Shown here one piece after another: positions 25,076 to 25,765 of a stretch of 43,306 nucleotides of DNA (the stretch's first letter is position 1; every line of letters starts with the position of its first letter). The notes under the pieces are model-generated. The model was not told where the DNA came from. It searched no databases and saw only the letters and a list, made by a program, of their open reading frames with translations. The position numbers and the translations under genes are program-made. The stretch spans positions 1-43,306 of the forward strand of contig JAAYMV010000077.1 in NCBI GenBank assembly GCA_012521185.1. The letters are read 5' to 3'. The DNA comes from Bacillota bacterium (lineage in GTDB: Bacteria > Bacillota > Limnochordia > Darwinibacteriales > DTU012).

Positions 25076-25104
25076 TTGACATTTTAGCTTTTCCATGTTA
25101 AGGT
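25076..25104 (+). promoter_or_regulatory. SigA-type promoter before the c-di-AMP riboswitch
   Basis: TTGACA (25076-25081, perfect -35) is separated by 17 bases from TAAGGT (25099-25104). The -10 element is weak, but TG one base before it makes an extended -10. The riboswitch begins about ten bases downstream. Confidence 0.7.
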
Positions 25105-25112
25105 AATTACAG

Positions 25113-25230
25113 AAATCTCCGAATATCATTTTATGACAACGGGGGACCCGATATTTAGGGGTGAATCGAATGTTTTAATTCGAAGGGCAACTTGGGTGTC
25201 CTAACCCGTCAGCTAACCTCGTAGGAGTAC
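25113..25230 (+). ncRNA. Cyclic-di-AMP riboswitch (ydaO/yuaA class)
   Basis: The conserved blocks of the class occur in order: GGGGGACCC (25141-25149), AGGGGTGAATC (25157-25167), a short hairpin (TCGAA/TTCGA), AGGGC (25184-25188), then CCCGTCAGCTAACCTCGTA (25205-25223). The outer P1 stem can form between CTCC (25117-25120) and GGAG (25224-25227). In this class, ligand binding generally turns expression off. A strong terminator hairpin follows three bases after the aptamer, as expected for transcriptional control. The first full gene downstream is veg. Confidence 0.93.
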
Positions 25231-25233
25231 ACC

Positions 25234-25279
25234 AAGCGTATGTCAACTCATATTGTGTGAGTTCGTCATGCGCTTTTTT
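25234..25279 (+). terminator. Riboswitch expression-platform terminator
   Basis: Arms AAGCGTATG and CATGCGCTT (one G-U pair), with an inner AACTCA/TGAGTT stem, form a long hairpin followed by T6. It sits directly after the c-di-AMP aptamer and would end the transcript before veg when the ligand is bound. Confidence 0.9.
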
Positions 25280-25301
25280 GTATTCATTAATCAGTAAGGA
25301 G

Positions 25302-25397
25302 ATGATGTTCTTGAAGACTCGAAATCACTGCCGCAATCCGGACATACTTACCCTATTATCCATTCTATGCAATTCATGCGAATCTGTAAATGGATGA
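25302..25397 (+). CDS. Possible small Cys-containing ORF between riboswitch and veg (29-31 residues)
   Basis: A short frame follows AAGGAG. ATG at 25302 or 25305 would be too close to that site; TTG at 25311 has a nine-base spacing and would give 29 residues. The peptide has three Cys (one pair as CNSC) and no recognised family. The same bases can fold as nested inverted repeats (ATCCATT/AATGGAT around ATTC/GAAT), so this may be untranslated structured leader. I see no other gene here. Confidence 0.25.
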   Translation: MMFLKTRNHCRNPDILTLLSILCNSCESVNG

Positions 25398-25458
25398 TCC
25401 TGTAAAATTTCGTGTTCGGTTCGTTTACTGATTAAATTTATAAGGAAGGTGAACGTCT

Positions 25459-25719
25459 GTGGCTGTTCAGTACACCATCGATCAAATCAAGAAGAGCTTA
25501 GATGCTTGCGTTGGAAAGAAAGTTAAACTTAGAGCTGATAAAGGAAGAAAAAGAGTTTTAGAAGCAGAAGGTGTTCTAGTAGAAACATATCCAAAATTAT
25601 TTGTAATTAAACTTGATAAATCTAATGCAGTTAGAAGATTATCATATACTTATGCTGATATACTAACAGAAAAAGTAGAGCTTACACTTGATGATAAGCG
25701 CATTGGAATCCCAAGTTAA
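25459..25719 (+). CDS. veg: Veg protein (biofilm-formation stimulator family)
   Basis: This 86-residue protein matches the small conserved Veg family: IDQIKKSLDACVGKKVKLRADKGRKR near the N-terminus and RLSYTYADILTEKVELTL near the C-terminus, with a KOW-like small beta-barrel pattern. In Bacillus subtilis Veg stimulates biofilm matrix genes by countering SinR. The GTG start follows AAGGAAGGTG. No convincing promoter lies between the riboswitch terminator and the gene, so it is probably transcribed through the c-di-AMP riboswitch. A bidirectional terminator follows. Confidence 0.93.
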   Translation: MAVQYTIDQIKKSLDACVGKKVKLRADKGRKRVLEAEGVLVETYPKLFVIKLDKSNAVRRLSYTYADILTEKVELTLDDKRIGIPS

Positions 25720-25739: not shown

Positions 25740-25765
25740 AAAAGCACCCTTAAACGGGTGCTTTT
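25740..25765. terminator. Bidirectional terminator between veg and the convergent gene
   Basis: The stem AAAAGCACCC/GGGTGCTTTT (10 bp, loop of six) has A-rich and T-rich flanks on both sides. It can therefore end veg on the plus strand and the outer-membrane-like gene on the minus strand. Confidence 0.88.

Follow-up and report, generated by a model that had tools for sequence, protein, structure and literature searches.

A cyclic-di-AMP riboswitch that appears to control a second veg gene in Limnochordia

The window analyzed here is the whole 43,306-nt stretch of contig JAAYMV010000077.1 (assembly GCA_012521185.1, genome G000 below) from a Bacillota bacterium of the Limnochordia. Within it, a gene of the VEG family, veg2, lies behind a leader, and its neighbors are a PHP-domain gene and then a CofD/YvcK-type gene. 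The features of this locus are as follows.

25076–25104, + strand: promoter found and scored from its sequence, with TTGACA (25076–25081), a 17-nt spacer, TG at 25096–25097 and the −10 hexamer TAAGGT (25099–25104)
25107–25243, + strand: c-di-AMP riboswitch aptamer (RF00379, ydaO class), full length, cmscan 93.2 bits
25191–25195, + strand: aptamer loop CUUGG, candidate 5′ switching strand, complementary to 25232–25236
25232–25236, + strand: CCAAG, candidate 3′ switching strand, sharing its last three bases with the foot of the terminator stem
25234–25279, + strand: intrinsic terminator, stem 25234–25275 and U-run 25274–25279, −20.7 kcal/mol, z −7.1
25302 or 25311 to 25397, + strand: short open reading frame of 31 codons from ATG 25302 or 28 from TTG 25311, probable relic of a CxxC/CxxC gene by position and DNA similarity
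25442–25449, + strand: Shine-Dalgarno sequence AAGGAAGG of veg2, from sequence
25459–25719, + strand: veg2, second paralog, 86-amino-acid VEG-family protein with a GTG start (Pfam PF06257, E 3.5e-29)
25740–25765, + strand: terminator after veg2 (terminator scan), ending a single-gene transcript

The RNA of this leader is a standard member of the RF00379 class, and its novelty lies in the target. The match, which is the sole Rfam match within the window, covers all 134 model positions (1–134) at 93.2 bits (gathering score 38; E 8e-21), and the z value of the terminator hairpin was obtained against shuffled sequences. Both the ydaO-class aptamer upstream of veg and the terminator between them, as proposed in a first-pass annotation of this DNA, are thus borne out. 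The same annotation spoke of a complete promoter, which is generous wording since the −10 hexamer is poor and the consensus promoter scan did not list the site; the −35 hexamer is perfect and the TG extension good, but TAAGGT has only three of six matches. The promoters of relatives are better: at the equivalent position they have TTGACA-18-TATACT and similar sequences with a TG at a similar place, and TTGACA/TTGACT-17/18-TATACT-like sites with TG lie 5′ of the veg2 riboswitches in most genomes. The G000 genome contains two other RF00379 riboswitches, which precede a sodium/hydrogen exchanger-family (cation antiporter) gene and a DUF1538 gene, and it has two genes with the DAC domain of c-di-AMP synthases, so the organism has the means to make the ligand.

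The Veg2 protein matches the Pfam VEG model (PF06257) over positions 2–73 of 73 with 101 bits (cut-off 25). Between the terminator and veg2 there is no promoter-like site on the + strand; the best candidate has 8 of 12 consensus positions and none appears in the consensus scan. The DNA of the short open reading frame in this interval resembles the start of a gene for a CxxC protein in genome G044 (Smith-Waterman p 0.003, one of several comparisons), and the similarity of its protein to the CxxC and other riboswitch-linked small proteins is marginal or not significant. The frame, which the first-pass annotation does not mention, is probably a relic of the ∼59-amino-acid CxxC/CxxC gene found behind the riboswitch of relatives.

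G000 carries two veg genes, the window copy and veg1 on another contig (G000:C50). The latter has a ksgA-type methyltransferase gene and an RNaseH-like gene on one side and a gene for a peptidoglycan-binding protein on the other, a neighborhood which we take to resemble that of Bacillus subtilis veg. It has a perfect TTGACA-17-TATAAT promoter close to the gene start and no riboswitch upstream. Thus veg1 shares with B. subtilis veg the protein family (PF06257), the place beside a ksgA-type gene and a strong near-consensus promoter, whereas veg2 is a second copy that lies elsewhere, behind a riboswitch and without a promoter of its own. Measured against what would mark an ortholog of B. subtilis veg, the window copy has neither the ksgA neighborhood nor its own promoter, and it does not group with the ordinary veg genes. 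In a tree of the proteins, a single branch with support of 86/88 (85% of bootstraps) separates veg1 from veg2; these values come from few alignment columns and are not above a strict threshold, so this split is only moderately supported. The veg2 proteins of G026–G028 are very divergent, and that of the window is the veg2 nearest to veg1. The simplest reading of these sequences is that a single duplication lies behind the two groups.

RF00379 and PF06257 were searched separately in 73 Limnochordia genomes and their positions crossed. Riboswitch and veg2 occur together on the same strand in 21 genomes of eight genera and two families: four in the family of the window (G000, G026, G027 and G028) and the others in a second family of the order (G033–G039, G041, G042, G044–G047, G049, G050, G052 and G053; the G049 riboswitch was confirmed by cmscan). 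All 21 second copies have RF00379 and a terminator upstream on their own strand. A further veg gene without a riboswitch is present in 20 of these genomes, and G038 yielded veg2 alone. No RF00379 match was found at any of the 40 ordinary veg (veg1) loci scanned, of which 37 have a promoter-like site with 10–12 of 12 consensus positions within 150 nt of the gene start. The 21 intervals between riboswitch and veg2, some of them only ∼100 nt long, contain no good promoter-like site (5–9 of 12, mostly 5–8, with a single case at 9). These promoter-poor intervals, together with the promoter upstream of the riboswitch, make veg2 apparently reachable only through the riboswitch. Since the 21 genomes are related, their second copies speak for conservation and are not 21 independent events. 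In a sample of 149 genomes of the phylum, veg is single-copy outside the Limnochordia, and none of the riboswitches listed there (at least ∼80 bits) lies upstream of veg; a general pairing of riboswitch and veg across the phylum, which was also considered, was rejected because the single-copy veg genes have no upstream riboswitch among these matches. In one distant genome of the phylum (G146:C149:12046–12670), RF00379 follows veg on the same strand at a distance of ∼180 nt and presumably serves the next gene.

The proposal that a c-di-AMP riboswitch controls veg therefore holds in part. A veg-family gene does appear to be controlled, as indicated by the 21 of 21 pairing and the intervals without good promoter-like sites, and the riboswitch precedes the second veg gene in 20 relatives of the window genome; but the target is the second paralog, and the ordinary veg has no riboswitch. 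Because the pairing is kept in 21 genomes and the ordinary veg is never found with the switch, the duplicate veg looks like a real new c-di-AMP target.

The surroundings of these loci vary. The potassium uptake genes trkA-trkH are opposite-strand neighbors upstream of the riboswitch in many second-family genomes (L031–L041 and others), and the riboswitch points away from them; in the window this place is taken by the PHP-domain gene. In several genomes of genus g16 (L041–L046) a small GC-rich hairpin (CCCGGGAT..ATCCCG-like) lies between the terminator and the veg2 start; judged by eye, its sequence varies and its pairing is kept. Small proteins follow RF00379 elsewhere as well. Two-CxxC proteins of ∼48–63 amino acids, zinc-ribbon-like and without a Pfam match in the one member scanned, come after riboswitches L103, L105 and L108 as well as in the veg2 operons of G039, G041, G044 and G045. 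Proteins of ∼50–60 amino acids with an FLxLExHPRQK-like motif and significant pairwise similarity follow the riboswitch in G031, G040, G048 and G051 (L098, L101, L104 and L109). In G025, G029 and, twice, G030 (L092, L093, L094 and L095) a riboswitch and terminator precede a conserved hydrophobic protein of ∼30 amino acids (M(L)xPVKL..VRL...), probably a single membrane span, which begins ∼80–130 nt past RF00379 with no other same-strand gene nearby.

The outer stem of the terminator is kept with compensatory changes among the veg2 leaders, and its inner part diverges among genera. Among the 21 leaders, pair 8-47 is UA in 11, CG in six and UG in four, and pair 14-39 is GC in ten, CG in four, UA in four, AU in two and UG in one. 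The CCAAG strand is found in all 21. In 36 distinct riboswitches the match between the strands at the CUUGG and CCAAG positions is 13.9, as against 11.7 when they are re-paired at random (p 0.001, kinship ignored), and these include full exchanges such as CUCUUCA:UGAAGAG. The CUUGG:CCAAG pairing could serve as an antiterminator or belong to the tertiary fold of the aptamer; it overlaps the terminator by only three bases, too few to assign it to one state. Members of the c-di-AMP riboswitch class have been described as OFF switches (PMC9960051), and in the kdp leader c-di-AMP raised termination from 27 to 63% (PMC6488665). By analogy with these studied members, the veg2 riboswitch is likely a transcription-OFF switch. 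Transcription would start near 25111, a position that would take in the paired core of the aptamer. At high c-di-AMP the aptamer would be stabilized, the terminator at 25234–25279 would form and veg2 would be off; at low c-di-AMP, for which low potassium is a presumed trigger, RNA polymerase would read through and veg2 alone would be made. The veg1 gene, transcribed from its own strong promoter, should stand outside this circuit. The reading we favor, with a probability of about 80%, is that veg2, a dedicated second veg copy, is under the control of a standard c-di-AMP riboswitch acting by transcription termination.

It might be argued that the true targets of the riboswitch are the small genes that can follow it and that veg2 is a passenger at the operon end. 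In G039, G041, G044 and G045 the riboswitch is followed in turn by genes for a ∼59-amino-acid two-CxxC protein and a ∼105-amino-acid protein and by veg2, and in G042 and G028 the ∼105-amino-acid protein alone intervenes. The ∼105-amino-acid family (L037:5081–5398 and six relatives, alignment A1) occurs in seven Limnochordia genomes, always behind RF00379 and once (G054) without veg2, and riboswitches with stand-alone CxxC genes are present in G040, G048 and G051. The family has no Pfam match; its predicted structure is a CnaB-like beta sandwich (pLDDT 80.7), and the best PDB matches of the model are pilin and CnaB domains with modest TM-scores. However, in 12 of the 21 genomes (six each of genera g9 and g16) the riboswitch leads straight into veg2 with no gene between, and riboswitch, terminator and promoter persist there. 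They persist likewise in G000, G026 and G027, where only short open reading frames or relics remain in between; G026 retains a 3′ remnant of the G028-type ∼105-amino-acid gene before veg2 (Smith-Waterman p 0.003). Riboswitch and veg2 thus stay together where the intervening genes are missing, which makes veg2 the recurrent target and the passenger explanation unlikely. Even less probable, in our judgment, is that veg2 is made mainly from an unrecognized promoter past the terminator and that the riboswitch carries little weight. The first-pass annotation had seen no second promoter before veg and had named a start at 25280–25450 that is used for veg as an observation that would undo its proposal; by sequence, none is recognizable in the window or at the 21 loci (at most 9 of 12 in the consensus scan). 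Such a scan would miss promoters of unusual type, and the upstream −10 (TAAGGT) is weak, but no good site exists in any of the 21 intervals, even those of ∼100 nt, and such sites are obvious at veg1 in the same genomes.

A further suggestion was that the switch links c-di-AMP to biofilm matrix production, acting through Veg and SinR. It draws on B. subtilis, where mutation of veg impaired both the expression of biofilm genes and the formation of biofilms (Lei et al. 2013, cited in PMC8307031). According to PMC8307031, what Veg does precisely has yet to be identified, and its role may lie in RNA metabolism: a cspB cspD double mutant is rescued when veg is reduced or absent, and Veg was among the mRNA-associated proteins of Clostridioides difficile. 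No SinI-family domain (PF08671) was found in G000 in a search in which the B. subtilis control was positive, and the target is the second paralog and not the ordinary veg, which remains. We consider a role related to RNA no less likely than matrix control; the conclusion about biofilm is therefore unsupported, and a matrix circuit of this kind seems to us very improbable. By analogy with the family, Veg2 may act on RNA rather than on the biofilm matrix in particular.

In its general plan, the veg2 leader that we regard as a c-di-AMP-controlled unit is like the known RF00379 leaders of B. subtilis ydaO/kimA and Bacillus thuringiensis kdpFABC: each has a full-length aptamer, a downstream intrinsic terminator and a single transcription unit. 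It differs in that its target is a VEG-family paralog and not a potassium transporter, osmolyte or wall-hydrolase gene. Among the papers that our literature search covered, none was found that links a c-di-AMP riboswitch or ydaO with the control of veg. The regulon of this riboswitch would thus gain a conserved non-transport target. Whether a duplicated Veg, probably RNA-associated, was captured by the c-di-AMP regulon, with a constitutive Veg1 and a c-di-AMP-repressed Veg2, is a more tentative matter, to which we would give somewhat less than even odds. If it is true, a messenger of potassium and osmotic state would adjust RNA metabolism through a Veg2 made only at low c-di-AMP, and Veg2 would stand in that regulon alongside several small riboswitch-controlled proteins. 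The placing of one Veg copy under c-di-AMP control suggests that what Veg does is important when cells adapt to potassium or osmotic conditions, and the two copies, of which one has a strong promoter to itself and the other is apparently controlled by the messenger, offer a natural system for asking what Veg proteins do.
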